Shown here: piece after piece, positions 12,239-20,472 of the stretch
Layout of the letters: the number at the start of each line of letters is the position of its first letter
How positions within the stretch are numbered: position 1 is the first letter of the stretch
Assembly: GCA_021740045.1 (NCBI GenBank)
Contig: JAIPAP010000020.1
Span: 1-42,542, forward strand
From: Bacteroidales bacterium
GTDB taxonomy: Bacteria > Bacteroidota > Bacteroidia > Bacteroidales > JAIPAP01
Direction of reading: 5' to 3'
Length of the DNA stretch: 42,542 nt
Translations under genes and position numbers: made by a program
Notes under the pieces: model-generated
What the model was told of the DNA's origin: nothing
What the model saw: only the letters and a program-made list of their open reading frames with translations
Database searches by the model: none

Positions 12239-15200
12239 ATTATCAAAAAAAGGTTTAAAATACTGCTTGGATTACTCTTTGTTATACTGTTGCTGGTAGC
12301 TGCCGGTTATACCATTTTGCAAAACAGTAAAGTGCAAACCTATATCATTGAAAAATTAACCGAAAAGCTTAGCGATGATCTTAACACCCGGGTGAGCATT
12401 GAAAAAGTGGATCTTAATTGGTACCTCGACCTGGTATTAAAAGGTGTTTACGCAGAAGATCGTAACAATGACACCCTCCTTTATGCCGAAAAGATCAAAG
12501 TGGATGTGGACAGGATCGACAGAGGCGACAACCATATTTTTGTGGATAAGATCAAATTTCAACGCTCGGTGATCAACTTGCGCAAGTATAAGGATGACAC
12601 TACCATAAACCTTCAATTGTTCATTAATTATTTTAGAACTCCCAAGCCCGATTCCCTTAGGACTAAATGGAATATTTCCTGTAAAGGACTTGCCATTGAA
12701 AACACCCGTTTTACCTATTCCAATCACAACAAACCATTCAAAGATAACGGTATTGAGCCTAATCATTTGGTAATAAATAATTTAACCACTGATATCGAGC
12801 ACATCCATCTTGAACGCGATACGGTAACGGCCAAAATCAACCATCTTGGCCTGCAAGAGCATAAAGGGTTTGAACTAGAGCATCTGGCCGCTGTTGTGAA
12901 ATACAGCCCGGCAGGTATATTGGCCAACAATTTGCGCATCAAGACCAATAACTCCAACCTGGCTATGAACCTCAAGCTAAATCATGAAGATAATAAACCA
13001 TTACGTGATTTTGTCGATAAGGTTAACATGGATATTCTTTTCGAACCCTCACGACTCTACATGGGGGATCTGGCCTTTTTTGTCCCCGGCATATATGGAA
13101 TGGATAATACCATTGACCTGGAAGGAACTGTAAGTGGGAAAGTTAAAAGGATAAGAGCCCGCGATTTTAAATTCGTCATTGGTAAACACACCCGTTTTGC
13201 CGGTAATATTGATATGACCGGATTACCGGATATAAAAGAAACCTTTATTCACCTTTCGGCCGATAAATTTGAGTCGTCGGCTTCGGATATCACGAACATA
13301 AAGCTTCCGGCTGGTAAAACACTCAAAGTTCCTGCTATGGCCTGGAAGTTGGGGCGCTTTAGAATAGAGGGAAAATTTACCGGATTTTATAACGATTTTG
13401 TTTCCTATGCCGATTTCTACACCAACTTGGGTCATATTGCCACCGACATAGCGCTAAAAAGCCAACCCGACAATCAGGTATTAGCATATAATGGAAAACT
13501 CAGCACCAACAACTTCCATCTGGGACGGTTAACGGGATCAGACGAACTGGGCACTATGGATTTAAAAGCTGAAGTTAAAGGTAGTGGCCTGTCGCAAAAA
13601 ACTGTCGATCTGGCGCTTACAGGACAAATCGATTCATTGGTATTTAGAAATAATAGTTATGACAGCATAAATATTTCAGGCAATCTGGCGGAGCAGCGCT
13701 TTAACGGTAAACTGGCTATTTTCGATAACCTCATCAAACTTGATTTTAACGGATTGGTCGATTTCGGTGGTGACTTACCCATCTATGATTTTAATGCCAT
13801 CATAGACAGCGCCTGGATTACCAAATTAAATCTGGCCAACCGTGATACTACAGCAATTTTGTCTACCCGCATTAATACCGACTTCATTGGAAAAGACCCC
13901 GATAACATGAGAGGGACCATAACGATCGACAGCACCTATTTTATCGAAAAGGAAAAAACATATGAACTAAGTAAACTCGATATTTCCATCGATGGCCGTT
14001 CAAAAACCAGGAAGTTTCTGCGTATGCAATCCGATGCTTTTGAAGTGGATGTGGATGGCAATTATACCATAAGCGATCTTGGAAAGTCATTTTCTTCTTT
14101 TATCAATCATTATATGCCTTCCCTTAAACTAAAATACCAATCGCAAAAAGTGAGCAACCAGGTAGTGAACCTTGATGTAACCATTAAAGAAAGTAAAAAG
14201 CTAACGGATATCTTCCTTCCAACCCTATCTATATCACCTGGAACCCGCCTCAGGGTTCAATTCGATACAAGAGATTCTCTCTTACGGGTATTCGGAAAAT
14301 CGGACCTTATCAAATTGGGCAAATATCAGCTTGACGATTGGTACCTGACCAGCCGATCATATGAAGGAGGGGTTATGCTTAAAACAGGCACCCGGGAGCT
14401 GATCCTTAAAGATAAAGGTAAGCGTAAGCGAGACACCCTGGTGCTGGGCATGGATGATTTTATCTTCTCCACGGACCTGCGTGCCGATACGGTGCATTAT
14501 TTTGTGAGCTGGAATGATCCACTCGAAGCTTCAAAAAACAAAGGCGAAATAACCGGTTTCGTTGATCTGAGCACTTACCCGAAAGTGGGTATGAAGATAA
14601 CACAAGCGGATATGCTGGTAAACGATACAAGCTGGACCATAAAACCCGGTAATTATCTCGAAATCGATTCTTCATCGATTACCGTGCGGGATTATGATAT
14701 TCGCACGGCTGAACAGCGTTTGCAAATGAACGGTAAATTCGCAAAAGATGCCACTGAGGATTTTGACATGGACTTTGAAAACCTGTCCCTATCGAATTTC
14801 GATTTATTTTTCCGCACTGCAGGCATTGATATGGATGGCCGTATCGATGGACAAGCGACTATTTCGAACGTATACGAAGCCCCAAAATTTACCAGCGATC
14901 TGGAAATAGAATCTTTTGCATTTAATCACCGGACATTAGGCGATGCCAGGATCATCACCATTTGGAATCCTTCCAAGCAATCGCTCGATGTAAATATGGA
15001 AGTAATTTATGAGGGTAACGCCGGTAAAAGTATGCCTTTAAGTGTTAAGGGCTTTTATTATCCCGAAAAAGAGAACGATAAAATCGACCTGGACATAGAA
15101 CTGCAAAACCTTAAGCTGGGCTTCCTTTATCCCTTCCTGAATAGTTTCCTTGCCAATTTGAAAGGATATGGCAGCGGAACCATGCATTTGGGTGGCACAC

Positions 15201-16705
15201 TTAAAAAACCCAAATTGACGGGGGAGGTGAACGCCATGCGAACAGAACTCATGATAGGTTACACCAAAGTAACCTATTCCCTGGCCGATAATATCATCTT
15301 TAACCCCACCGAAATTGTGTTTGACAATATAACAGTTTATGATTCACTGGGGAACAGGGGTACGGTAAATGGTTCGGTGTATCATGACTATTTTAAGAAT
15401 TTCAGGCCTGATATGAGCATTGAAGCCGAAAATTTGAGCGGACTAAACCTCAGTAGCGATCAAAACGAGATGTTTTACGGACAAGCCAGGGCCACAGGCA
15501 TAGTCAGGATATATCAGCTTGGCGATAATCTTTACATAAACACCAATGTTACCAGCGATGAAGGGACCGATATCGTGATCCCAATTACTTACGCCACAGA
15601 TGTGAGCAGTAAGGATTTTATCAAATTTGTGGGCAGCAATAATAAGGAAGGAAAAGAGGAAGATGAAGTCGATTATGAAGTCGATTTGAGTGGAATTGTT
15701 ATGAACCTGGAGCTGGAAGTTACGCCCGAGGCCAACATCAAATTATACCTGCCCTATCAAATGGGGAATTTAGAAATGACAGGTTCGGGAGATATACGTA
15801 TGGAAGTGGGCACCACGGGAGGATTCAATATGTTCGGGGAATACCAGATCGATGAGGGTGAATTCCTGTTTCAGCTTGAGAACATGATCAGCCGCACATT
15901 TTCTATCGGCGAGGGAAGTTCTATCCGGTGGTCGGGTGATCCGTACAATGGCTTATTGAATGTAAATGCCGTTTATCGCACCCGGCCCTCCTTAAGCAGC
16001 ATACCCATGTATTCGGAGATGCAAGAATATAACGAGCGCATACCGGTTAATGCCATTGTAAAACTTCGAAATGAATTATCCAATCCGGATATATCCTTTA
16101 GCTTAGGCATTCCTGATGTAGATGAACAAACCAGGCGACTGGTGTACAGTGCAGTCGACACTTCGAACCAGGCGGAAATGAGCCGGCAGATGATCTCGCT
16201 GCTGGTTTTAAACAATTTCAGCTTCTCCGCTTCCAATGCCGGCATAGCTTCCAGCGTGGGTAGTTCTTCCTTCGATCTGATCTCCAGCCAGGTGAGTAAC
16301 TGGCTTTCGCAAATCAGTAGCGAAGTGGATGTGGGCGTAAATTACCGGCCCGGAACCGACATCAGCACCGAGGAGCTCGAAGTAGCCCTTTCGACCCAGC
16401 TTTTTAACAACCGGGTTATTATCGATGGTAATGTTGGCTACCTGGGCGATGAACCCAACCGGAGTAATGCCAGTAATCTTGTGGGTGATGTGAATGTGGA
16501 GGTAAAATTGACCAAAGATGGACGGCTCAGGCTAAAAGCGTTCAATAAATCCAACAACATTTACCTGTTCGATACCTACGCGCCCTACACACAGGGAGTA
16601 GGCGTATCGTACCGAAAAGAATTCGATACCTTCAGGGAATTATTAGGCATTGGCAAGGAAGAGCTGCCTGATTCACTGCAAACCCGGAACAAGCAAAAAC
16701 AATAA
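12239..16705 (+). CDS. TamB-like translocation/assembly module protein
   Basis: This very large (about 1,488-residue) envelope protein has one N-terminal membrane helix (IIKKRFKILLGLLFVILLLVAAGY), a long run of AsmA/TamB-like amphipathic beta-strands and a C-terminal TamB (DUF490) domain at roughly 1,050-1,450. The C-terminal landmarks are a run of G-x-GS-phi-phi-GT/GSG motifs, NMFGEYQIDEGEFLFQLENM and the late VGVNYRPG segment. TamB-like proteins bridge inner and outer membranes and are linked to outer-membrane protein assembly and phospholipid transport. The membrane helix lies partly upstream of the first conventional start (TTG at 12290). The frame is open back to 12221 with no ATG, GTG or TTG, so I place the start tentatively at an ATT (12239). 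Confidence 0.88.
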   Translation: MIKKRFKILLGLLFVILLLVAAGYTILQNSKVQTYIIEKLTEKLSDDLNTRVSIEKVDLNWYLDLVLKGVYAEDRNNDTLLYAEKIKVDVDRIDRGDNHIFVDKIKFQRSVINLRKYKDDTTINLQLFINYFRTPKPDSLRTKWNISCKGLAIENTRFTYSNHNKPFKDNGIEPNHLVINNLTTDIEHIHLERDTVTAKINHLGLQEHKGFELEHLAAVVKYSPAGILANNLRIKTNNSNLAMNLKLNHEDNKPLRDFVDKVNMDILFEPSRLYMGDLAFFVPGIYGMDNTIDLEGTVSGKVKRIRARDFKFVIGKHTRFAGNIDMTGLPDIKETFIHLSADKFESSASDITNIKLPAGKTLKVPAMAWKLGRFRIEGKFTGFYNDFVSYADFYTNLGHIATDIALKSQPDNQVLAYNGKLSTNNFHLGRLTGSDELGTMDLKAEVKGSGLSQKTVDLALTGQIDSLVFRNNSYDSINISGNLAEQRFNGKLAIFDNLIKLDFNGLVDFGGDLPIYDFNAIIDSAWITKLNLANRDTTAILSTRINTDFIGKDPDNMRGTITIDSTYFIEKEKTYELSKLDISIDGRSKTRKFLRMQSDAFEVDVDGNYTISDLGKSFSSFINHYMPSLKLKYQSQKVSNQVVNLDVTIKESKKLTDIFLPTLSISPGTRLRVQFDTRDSLLRVFGKSDLIKLGKYQLDDWYLTSRSYEGGVMLKTGTRELILKDKGKRKRDTLVLGMDDFIFSTDLRADTVHYFVSWNDPLEASKNKGEITGFVDLSTYPKVGMKITQADMLVNDTSWTIKPGNYLEIDSSSITVRDYDIRTAEQRLQMNGKFAKDATEDFDMDFENLSLSNFDLFFRTAGIDMDGRIDGQATISNVYEAPKFTSDLEIESFAFNHRTLGDARIITIWNPSKQSLDVNMEVIYEGNAGKSMPLSVKGFYYPEKENDKIDLDIELQNLKLGFLYPFLNSFLANLKGYGSGTMHLGGTLKKPKLTGEVNAMRTELMIGYTKVTYSLADNIIFNPTEIVFDNITVYDSLGNRGTVNGSVYHDYFKNFRPDMSIEAENLSGLNLSSDQNEMFYGQARATGIVRIYQLGDNLYINTNVTSDEGTDIVIPITYATDVSSKDFIKFVGSNNKEGKEEDEVDYEVDLSGIVMNLELEVTPEANIKLYLPYQMGNLEMTGSGDIRMEVGTTGGFNMFGEYQIDEGEFLFQLENMISRTFSIGEGSSIRWSGDPYNGLLNVNAVYRTRPSLSSIPMYSEMQEYNERIPVNAIVKLRNELSNPDISFSLGIPDVDEQTRRLVYSAVDTSNQAEMSRQMISLLVLNNFSFSASNAGIASSVGSSSFDLISSQVSNWLSQISSEVDVGVNYRPGTDISTEELEVALSTQLFNNRVIIDGNVGYLGDEPNRSNASNLVGDVNVEVKLTKDGRLRLKAFNKSNNIYLFDTYAPYTQGVGVSYRKEFDTFRELLGIGKEELPDSLQTRNKQKQ

Positions 16706-16899
16706 GATAGCTTGAGGATTCTAAAGGAATTGCAATCATTAAACCCATGCGTTTTTTTATTCTACATACTCCTCACTATTATTTAACCAATCAATCGTCA
16801 TTGGGGAGGAAACGTACATTTTCTCATCAGCACATCATCACATCAACATTCTCCTTGCGCTCCCGCCTCAGAATCATTATCTTCGTAAAAAATTCACCT

Positions 16900-17985
16900 A
16901 TGTGTAAAAAACTTATTATAAGCCTTCTGACGCTATTTTTAAGCATAACGGCATATTCCCAAATCACCATCGATGCCAATGACATGCCCGATGTGGGCGA
17001 TACCATTCGTCGCTCGGTAACCTTCGATATTACAGGTTATGATTTTGAAGAAACCGGAAATGATTACACCTGGAATTTCTCCAACTTATTGCCGGTGGAA
17101 CAGCAAGTAGACACCTTTGTTAGTGTGGGCTCCACCCCATTTGTGTATCAACTTGTATTCATCTATCCTTTTGTTGCCACTATAGCCTCTCCCACGGGCA
17201 ACGGATTGGAGATGTTCCCCGATTCGGTCATCTCCGATGTTTATTCCTTTTTTAAGGAAACCGATGAAAAGTTCCAGCTAGCCGGTTACGCAGCTACGCT
17301 AAGCGGCATTCCCTTACCCGCTAAATACGATGAACCCGATGTTTGGTATAACTTCCCGATGGAACCCGGTGATATGGACTCGAGCTTATCGTCTTTTGAA
17401 ATGAATGTACCCGAAATAGGTTTTTTCAGCACTGAACGAAAACGGGTGAATACAGTGGATGGCTGGGGTACTTTAACAACTCCCTTTGGAACATTCGAAA
17501 CTCTCAGGGTAAAATCGGAAGTGAATCAATATGACAGCTTGTATATCGATTCACTCAATATGGGCTTTCCCATCGAAAGAGAATATACCGAATATAAATG
17601 GTTGGGAAATGATTTCGGTCTCCCGCTGATTAAAGCCACCGAAGAGAGCTTGGGCGGATATACCATTCAATACATCGATTCGGTGCGAACCATTACATCA
17701 ATGCCTGAAACAGCATCCAAGCCAAATCAAGCTGCCAGGATTTATCCCAATCCCACCGGCGCAAGCTTCACTATTCATATAAAGAGCAATAATGCCCATA
17801 CAGCCTATATTGATATAAGGGATTTAAATGGCCGGCTTGTACATGTACTTTATGCCGGCAAACTCTCCCAAAGCGGTTTTCAACAAAATTACCGGATAAA
17901 AAACCTGGGGTTAAAGCCCGGGGTTTACGTGATTAATTTTAAGTTGGATGAAAGCAGTTTTAACAAAAAGTTAATCGTTAGGTAA
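16900..17985 (+). CDS. Secreted protein with T9SS C-terminal sorting domain
   Basis: This 361-residue protein starts at the internal ATG 16900, where a clear signal peptide begins (MCKKLIISLLTLFLSITAYSQ). The 51 extra codons back to 16747 have no signal character. The central part is beta-rich and of unknown function. The last about 80 residues form a type A Por secretion sorting domain: ARIYPNPTGASFTIH, then YIDIRDLNGRLVH, and LGLKPGVYVINFKL ending in a basic KLIVR. It is therefore probably exported by the T9SS and anchored to the surface or released. Confidence 0.82.
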   Translation: MCKKLIISLLTLFLSITAYSQITIDANDMPDVGDTIRRSVTFDITGYDFEETGNDYTWNFSNLLPVEQQVDTFVSVGSTPFVYQLVFIYPFVATIASPTGNGLEMFPDSVISDVYSFFKETDEKFQLAGYAATLSGIPLPAKYDEPDVWYNFPMEPGDMDSSLSSFEMNVPEIGFFSTERKRVNTVDGWGTLTTPFGTFETLRVKSEVNQYDSLYIDSLNMGFPIEREYTEYKWLGNDFGLPLIKATEESLGGYTIQYIDSVRTITSMPETASKPNQAARIYPNPTGASFTIHIKSNNAHTAYIDIRDLNGRLVHVLYAGKLSQSGFQQNYRIKNLGLKPGVYVINFKLDESSFNKKLIVR

Positions 17986-18648: not shown

Positions 18649-19137
18649 ATGAAAGTAAAAGTATTGGCCATAATCGTAATGTTGGTAGCATCTGGCGCCA
18701 ACCTGGCTACAGGAAACCAAACCGGAGAATTCTTCCCGTTGGAAGATGAATGTACCGTTGATGATATCCCCTTTGATACCCGTACAGTTTTTCTTAATGT
18801 AATCAAAGGTGACAGCACCTTTCAGCAAGTATTTAAAATGGAAGAAGAAAGCCCTGTTAACGACATCCCGTTCAATACGGAAGTAATTGCCCGCGAAGCG
18901 ATGGCATCAAGAGGATATTCAGCTACCGACAACCCCTTTATGTTGGAAGAAGAAGCCAGCGTGAACGATATTCCGTTCGATACCAAACAGATTTTCAATC
19001 ATATCAGTTATAATTGGAATGAAGTATTTTGCCCGGGATATAACAAATTGATAAATTGTTTCAGTTTATCACCCGAAAGCTATATTGATGATATACCATT
19101 CGATACATTTCGTGTAATTTGTATTACAGCGAAATGA
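18649..19137 (+). CDS. Small exported protein with four DDIPFDT repeats
   Basis: This 162-residue protein has an N-terminal signal peptide (MKVKVLAIIVMLVASGANLA). The mature part is built from four copies of a 14-residue motif at residues 31-44 (LEDECTVDDIPFDT), 64-77 (MEEESPVNDIPFNT), 99-112 (LEEEASVNDIPFDT) and 140-153 (LSPESYIDDIPFDT). The copies start 33, 35 and 41 residues apart. The invariant core is [ND]-D-I-P-F-[ND]-T preceded by a Leu/Met-Glu-rich stretch. The linkers differ, so the motif itself is under selection. I know of no described domain with this core. The acidic, Asp-rich motif could bind Ca2+ or a protein partner; this is a guess. A strong terminator follows immediately. 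Confidence 0.8.
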   Translation: MKVKVLAIIVMLVASGANLATGNQTGEFFPLEDECTVDDIPFDTRTVFLNVIKGDSTFQQVFKMEEESPVNDIPFNTEVIAREAMASRGYSATDNPFMLEEEASVNDIPFDTKQIFNHISYNWNEVFCPGYNKLINCFSLSPESYIDDIPFDTFRVICITAK

Positions 19138-19176: not shown

Positions 19177-19210
19177 AAAGCCCCCCTTGCCTGTTGTGGG
19201 GGCTTTTGTT
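19177..19210 (+). terminator. Rho-independent terminator
   Basis: AAAGCCCCC (19177-19185) pairs with GGGGGCTTT (19198-19206) around a 12-base loop and is followed by a T-rich stretch (TTTTGTTATTT). It lies about 40 bases after the stop of the DDIPFDT-repeat gene and between convergent genes. On the minus strand it would end just past the GWxTD gene, though the T-run there is weaker. Confidence 0.85.
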
Positions 19211-19212
19211 AT

Positions 19213-20472
19213 TTAACGCCGCCATTGTTCCACGGCATTGAACCAAAGATTTTCATAACCCGGCGAACGGTCGATCAGATAATAATCGGGTGTAAACGGA
19301 TTATCAACCCGGATAAAATCAAATTTTTTAGCCTCCAGGCTACCCGGTATACCGTATACCCATCGCTCAAAATCATCGCGGCGAAAAACAGCATTGGGTA
19401 GTCCGAAAATAATATACATCATCCCCCGTTCGGTTTTCCAGCCTTCGCGGATAGAAGGAAATAACCGGTTGGCATCTTCCACCCGGTGGTAATATTTTTT
19501 TAATAAAACCATTGCGCGGCCAGGTGTTCCTGCTATGTTTAACCAAAAACTGTCGACCGCCACCTTAGGCTCCTCATAACTCATCAGCTCTTCATACTCT
19601 TCCTGCTTGGTAATGTACCGCAGGGCTTCCGCCATTTGATGAGAGGTATTCACATTGGGGTAACCTTCGTATAAATAGGATAGCGTAAGCCCTTTCTTGC
19701 TGCTGGTATCGTTTTTAAACTGATAAAAGCCGGGCTTATCCAGGGTAAGTATTTCTGTTTGCCTATTATTGGTTAACATGATGGGATAGGTGGTATCTGC
19801 TTCATAATTGATATCACCAGAGGTTTCGTCGATTTTGAATGGTGGCGGCGGAACCGGTAAACGATCGCTGTAATATCCCATATAGATCTGCTCATGTTCA
19901 GGCGCTCCGCATTTTAACTGGAAAGGCTGTCCCGATGAAAAGTAATTGACAAAAATGGGATTACCCTTTGGGGTTAACGGAATAAAATAATGCGGATCGG
20001 AATAGGAGCTCTTATAAATTTCATGTATTGTGGTATAGGTATAGCCACGGTTCATATCCTTCAAATCAATCACCAGGATGTAATCATCTTCAAATTCAGC
20101 ATTCACATTAAAGTATTCTATGAGCTTATAATCCTTTTTGTAATGCCGGGAGTCAGTATATTCCAATGAAGCACTGTCGATTATCTCATCACTCTCGAAG
20201 GAATCATACAGCTCAAAATGCACTTGTATTTTAGCCTGGAAGGGCTCACCCGGTTTTTCACGGGCATACAAATAATCCTGCATTTTAGTCTTAAAATATA
20301 TCCGGGTAACAGAATCACTTACATTGAACGGCCTGAACTGAATAGCCGGCCGTCCTCTTTCACTTTTATAGAGATACGCCAGGTTTTCATAAGTCATCTT
20401 GTTCGACGGAGCGCAGCCGAACATCATGATCAAAAGCATTGAAATCGTTAATATGAGTATGGTCTTTTTCAT
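19213..20472 (-). CDS. GWxTD domain lipoprotein
   Basis: This 419-residue lipoprotein has a signal peptide ending in a lipobox with Cys20 (LLIMMFGC). The C-terminal third is the GWxTD domain: LFPSIREGWKTERGMMYIIF, where the usual TD appears as TE, followed by GLPNAVFRRDDFERWVYG. The domain ends in a conserved FNAVEQWRR tail, a layout typical of Bacteroidota. Function is unknown. Its ATG overlaps the rmuC stop codon as TAATG (20470-20474), which implies translational coupling. Confidence 0.87.
   Translation of the reverse strand: MKKTILILTISMLLIMMFGCAPSNKMTYENLAYLYKSERGRPAIQFRPFNVSDSVTRIYFKTKMQDYLYAREKPGEPFQAKIQVHFELYDSFESDEIIDSASLEYTDSRHYKKDYKLIEYFNVNAEFEDDYILVIDLKDMNRGYTYTTIHEIYKSSYSDPHYFIPLTPKGNPIFVNYFSSGQPFQLKCGAPEHEQIYMGYYSDRLPVPPPPFKIDETSGDINYEADTTYPIMLTNNRQTEILTLDKPGFYQFKNDTSSKKGLTLSYLYEGYPNVNTSHQMAEALRYITKQEEYEELMSYEEPKVAVDSFWLNIAGTPGRAMVLLKKYYHRVEDANRLFPSIREGWKTERGMMYIIFGLPNAVFRRDDFERWVYGIPGSLEAKKFDFIRVDNPFTPDYYLIDRSPGYENLWFNAVEQWRR

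Follow-up and report, generated by a model that had tools for sequence, protein, structure and literature searches.

Exported DDIPF-repeat proteins of Bacteroidales form an undescribed family that may dock a partner in the cell envelope

A gene for a predicted exported protein with four DDIPF-type repeats was analysed in a 42,542-nucleotide stretch of DNA (the window) from a Bacteroidales bacterium (GenBank assembly GCA_021740045.1, contig JAIPAP010000020.1). Strong selection acts on the repeat, which is occasionally fused to a TonB-type domain, and the likely role of the protein is therefore to dock an envelope partner. No described family in the searched curated libraries or the open literature contains the DDIPF-repeat proteins, which are new at the level of the protein family; the mechanism is not claimed as unprecedented. 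A strongly selected, multi-copy exported family, nameless in these libraries, is thereby added to Bacteroidales known mostly from metagenomes.

Results

Gene and protein

The open reading frame (18649..19137, + strand) starts with ATG and encodes a protein of 162 amino acids. Its N-terminus, MKVKVLAIIVMLVASGANLA, has a maximal 15-residue hydropathy of 2.37 and is plausibly a Sec signal peptide (about residues 1–22; 18649..18714, +), as predicted from hydropathy, the N-termini of the family and a helix in the AlphaFold model. Signal-peptide-like N-termini are found throughout the family. The original prediction of a real gene with an exported product is supported, and many genomes hold homologues. 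The mature part is acidic, with 25 Asp or Glu against 9 Lys or Arg in 137 residues. The signal-peptide-like stretch stands alone at the N-terminus, where a membrane anchor with motor-binding motif is absent. The TonB_C fold was absent from the protein in Pfam and AlphaFold analyses and is carried by a minority of relatives only. Pfam and NCBIfam gave no match to a T9SS cargo signal (C-terminal Por_Secre_tail or type B sorting domain).

Four copies of [VI][ND]DIPF[ND]T had been described 33–41 residues apart behind a signal peptide, and this arrangement was confirmed. The cores are VDDIPFDT at residue 37 (18757..18780, +), VNDIPFNT at residue 70 (18856..18879, +), VNDIPFDT at residue 105 (18961..18984, +) and IDDIPFDT at residue 146 (19084..19107, +), with spacings of 33, 35 and 41 residues. 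The [LM]-x-[VI] gap is five residues in 4/4 copies, and the Tyr that usually precedes the core in the family is present at core 4 only. In 1000 shuffles, the mature part never yielded an 8-mer with over two occurrences at ≤2 mismatches; the real protein has four, far more than chance would give. Only 3–4 of 8 third codon positions are common to the cores. The repetition is therefore maintained at the protein level and does not stem from recent DNA duplication; the four cores are old copies.

The window protein had no significant match in Pfam, NCBIfam, PHROGs (weak matches only) or PDB. The 45 relatives, searched singly, matched no Pfam family at E 0.01, and against NCBIfam gave stray weak matches in 1–2 members only. 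PDB searches with the window protein and with the 45-relative profile returned nothing significant (best E 0.14 and 0.062, respectively, both to unrelated chains). Four spellings of the core motif were absent from 5.39 million open-access papers, and a wider search of the open literature found nothing on the family. The expectation that no named domain has this core therefore holds across these sources.

Repeat unit and selection

The family was defined by a signal peptide and at least one unit x-[LFM]-x(4)-[YFVS]-[IV]-[DN]-D-I-P-F-[DN]-T-x-x-[IV], a definition that the window protein fits. Possession of a core does not by itself identify a member: on each of three viral contigs a single chance copy occurs in an unrelated protein, and a viral origin was rejected. 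The consensus unit is F-x-[LFM]-E-E-E-x-Y-I-[DN]-D-I-P-F-[DN]-T-x-x-[IV]-A-x(4)-Y-x-x-A-[LMI], with the nearly invariant core Y-I-D-D-I-P-F-D-T. Acidic residues are conserved at core positions -4, -3, +1, +2 and +6, of which +1 and +6 interchange Asp and Asn. Units number one to five per protein, with two to four at nearly all loci of the first scan and a single recognised core in some members.

Among 84 non-redundant proteins, successive cores were spaced by 32 residues in 69 cases and by 31 in 26. The spacings of the window protein fall off this typical period, from which other members deviate too, and in this respect it is divergent within the family. Conservation extends beyond the core into the linker and the helix of the unit (Y+16, A+19, L+20), so that "32-residue repeat" is an apter name than a motif with free spacers. 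The original description of the linkers as unrelated and free thus suits the irregular window copy and fails for the family. In some units (L003, L013, L016, L043, L045 and others) a cysteine pair follows just after the core, e.g. TECITVDCLYEKA; most units are without it.

Substitution rates of motif and linkers were compared, as had been proposed. In 18 pairs of relatives (partly non-independent, and with cores marked by pattern in one sequence per pair, which slightly favours conservation), pooled dN/dS was 0.10 in the core region and 0.285 in the linkers, indicating stronger purifying selection on the core. In the same pairs, pS was similar in core (0.417) and linkers (0.367), and dN/dS was 0.387 in signal peptides and 0.162 in C-terminal tails.

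Distribution

A scan of genome contigs yielded 56 related loci of the same layout, nearly all coding for signal-peptide proteins. All lie in metagenome-assembled genomes labelled Bacteroidetes/Bacteroidota, Bacteroidales, Marinilabiliales, Lentimicrobium or Lentimicrobiaceae, with some Chlorobiota. The profile search for homologues, also proposed earlier, was performed with 45 sequences and detected the family in 26/393 Bacteroidales genomes (13 families, 15 genera); among 394 genomes sampled across Bacteroidota, it matched the window's own genome only. An exact DNA pattern for the core was present in 15/393 Bacteroidales genomes, with 0 for the reversed control. The family is confined, as found so far, to some mostly uncultured Bacteroidales.

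The 28 genomes reached via the first scan hold one to about seven gene copies each, some in tandem; tandem or near-tandem genes occur at L180, L181 and L183, with up to three in 2.7 kb. In Lentimicrobium sp. KA12 (L052:4750-5198; also L128), a repeat gene is split over two reading frames, either as a decayed copy or through an assembly error.

Genomic context

In the window, tsaD (opposite strand) is followed by tamB (12290-16705), a gene for a T9SS-sorted protein (16747..17985, +; assigned by Pfam Por_Secre_tail and synteny) and the repeat gene. The order of tamB, T9SS gene and repeat gene was confirmed in L036 and L052, and a homologue of the T9SS gene adjoins the repeat gene in G005, G119, G285 and G344. 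Homologues of the T9SS protein, in which Pfam detected no domain other than the sorting tail, occurred in 24/25 repeat-bearing genomes searched, some matches covering the sorting domain only. Both tamB and the T9SS gene are regarded as context, and no functional partnership with the repeat gene is claimed.

With neighbours named by eye from the sequence (except tamB, tsaD and the T9SS gene), family genes were located in four or more conserved settings that are unrelated to one another: after rsmI (about eleven loci), after tamB and the T9SS gene, near ZIP/panC-type genes and near a DNA-3-methyladenine-glycosylase gene. Long-lasting vertical inheritance is likely. Neighbour clustering and reading of 14 larger regions found no common operon partner; synteny is conserved in places and there involves unrelated housekeeping genes. 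An operon partner is not likely.

A terminator-like hairpin with a U-rich tail lies downstream of the gene (19177..19215, +). The hairpin (about 19177-19206) has a predicted stability of -18.3 kcal/mol (z -3.5). Of the strong terminator originally ascribed to the gene as its own, the stable hairpin stands; since the next gene converges on it from the other side, both genes possibly share the terminator. Evidence for promoters is weak: the Bacteroidota-type -33/-7 pair was not enriched upstream of family genes (1/44 vs 0.6 in shuffles), and TAnnTTTG alone was enriched (13/44 vs 4.4).

Predicted structure and C-terminal domains

AlphaFold modelling of the window protein with 45 sequences gave no global fold (pTM 0.21, mean pLDDT 67). 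The model begins with a signal helix; the cores lie in coil, and each is followed by a short helix. This picture suggests that the chain becomes ordered only once bound. The low confidence may instead stem from a thin alignment or a fold that requires a ligand.

A C-terminal hydrophobic stretch resembling a membrane anchor was found in 6/84 non-redundant members. A TonB C-terminal domain (CTD) directly follows the last core in 7/84 by pattern, and in nine sequences of a separate collection. In Pfam the fused domain gives a weak signal that falls slightly short of the cut-off (best E 4e-5); a profile comparison with TonB proteins encoded in the window's own genome gave E 4.9e-10. In one fused member, AlphaFold predicted a TonB-type domain at pLDDT of about 62–79, and each of the top 16 Foldseek matches in PDB was a TonB-type CTD (probability up to 1.00, best E 2.4e-3). 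In fused members, the helix behind the last core is aligned with the one preceding the YP motif of canonical TonB, and the DDIPF core itself lies outside the region aligned by profile. TonB/TolA CTDs bind partners by beta-strand addition (PMC12204202).

Small secreted proteins consisting of a TonB-type CTD only were also found in Bacteroidales (L189:429-782, G027 locus L195, loci L194-L225). They carry no membrane anchor, and at L030 (about 2640-2978) the gene for one of them immediately follows a repeat gene. Such proteins were present in 20/54 repeat-bearing genomes vs 3/60 close relatives of the window genome, a co-occurrence that is only suggestive because the query was taken from a repeat-bearing genome, and in which the lineages are not independent. 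The window genome had none at the threshold used. It does contain a 670-residue open frame with three TonB_C domains (L097, C69:20311-21300), whose N-terminal part is peptidase-like and, by eye, of M56/BlaR1 type.

Discussion

The reading we favour, with a confidence somewhat short of an even chance, is that the window protein is exported and mostly disordered and serves for multivalent docking in the periplasm or envelope. It would be a small Sec-exported protein, largely unfolded alone, with four docking units, each an acidic extended stretch ending in Y-I-D-D-I-P-F-D-T and followed by a short amphipathic helix. Every unit would bind one copy of the same envelope partner, and the protein would act as a multivalent scaffold or tether. 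Relatives would reach the envelope as soluble, C-terminally anchored or TonB-type-CTD-joined forms. Repeated binding of one partner is suggested by the variable number of units combined with a fixed unit and a selected acidic-hydrophobic core, and the periplasmic or envelope location by the signal peptide, the alternative anchor and the TonB-type domain. A unit number of one to five with a sharp period is as expected if units work singly and their number tunes avidity. Of the repeated binding site originally proposed, the conservation of the core and the selection on it are observed; binding is their most likely interpretation. Against docking, the family has no conserved partner gene next to it, the TonB domain is absent from the window protein and the TonB-like solo protein co-occurs unevenly.

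The hydrophobic residues that recur periodically (F, Y, I, Y, A, L) also count against docking, in that a regular repeat fold could arise from them. In such a fold, the 32-residue units would stack as a small solenoid or hairpin-type domain, possibly derived from the segment preceding the TonB CTD, and the core would be structural (a turn and helix cap) instead of a binding site. The sharp period and the conserved non-core positions fit such a fold, as does, for the derivation, the alignment of the post-core helix of fused members with the pre-YP helix of TonB. It is unlikely nonetheless: the AlphaFold model shows no packing, single-core members exist, the spacings of the window protein would break a tight solenoid, and the alignment with TonB stops short of the core. 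Another reading, a special case of docking, makes the repeats a sensor or regulator of TonB/outer-membrane transport that mimics or competes with the TonB partner sequence and is bound by TonB-type domains. It draws on the recurrence of the TonB CTD fusion in several families and on the solo proteins, with their sequence similarity to the fused domain and their co-occurrence with the repeats; given the origin of that query, the non-independence of the lineages and the lack of a solo protein in the window genome at the threshold used, it is improbable.

The acidity of the mature part and the conserved acids could alternatively mean that each E-E-E-x-Y-I-D-D-I-P-F-D cluster holds a divalent cation such as Ca2+, for storage, buffering or ion-dependent folding. 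This is quite improbable, as two of the acidic positions swap freely between Asp and Asn, no EF-hand, RTX or other Pfam calcium motif matches, and the hydrophobic residues I, P, F and T vary as little as the acids, a pattern more in keeping with a protein contact. Multiple near-identical cores within an exported protein, in variable copy number and with several paralogues per genome, would also be seen in a precursor from which several identical peptides are released (signalling peptides, bacteriocins or cores of modified peptides). We consider such a precursor very improbable, because no maturase, protease or transporter gene recurs beside the family, the cores diverge in linker and length, some members end in an anchor or in a folded TonB domain, and strong positional conservation reaches the helix of the unit.

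If the units dock, as we favour, the partner would be a shared, so far unseen envelope component, and the TonB-domain fusions are the first place to look for it. A broader proposal, itself rather unlikely, is that the DDIPF unit is a dedicated periplasmic recognition code, read by a single conserved partner in the envelope that may be a TonB-type domain. Several free-standing multivalent carriers per genome, whether soluble, anchored or fused to TonB-type domains, would then organise this partner across a whole branch of uncultured Bacteroidales.

Relation to known proteins

RTX, EF-hand and similar acidic repeat proteins resemble the DDIPF family in being exported or acidic and in the regular spacing of their repeats. 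The family differs from them in having no glycine-rich nonapeptide, no EF loop and no Pfam match. The TonB C-terminal domain (PF03544) belongs to the same compartment and follows the last repeat in some relatives; the window protein is without this domain. The fused members begin with a signal peptide, whereas the N-terminus of TonB holds a membrane anchor and motor-binding helix, and they show no proline-rich spanning region. The TonB-CTD-only proteins differ from the repeat family in having no DDIPF repeats, but share with it the signal peptide and are 35–44% identical to the fused domain.
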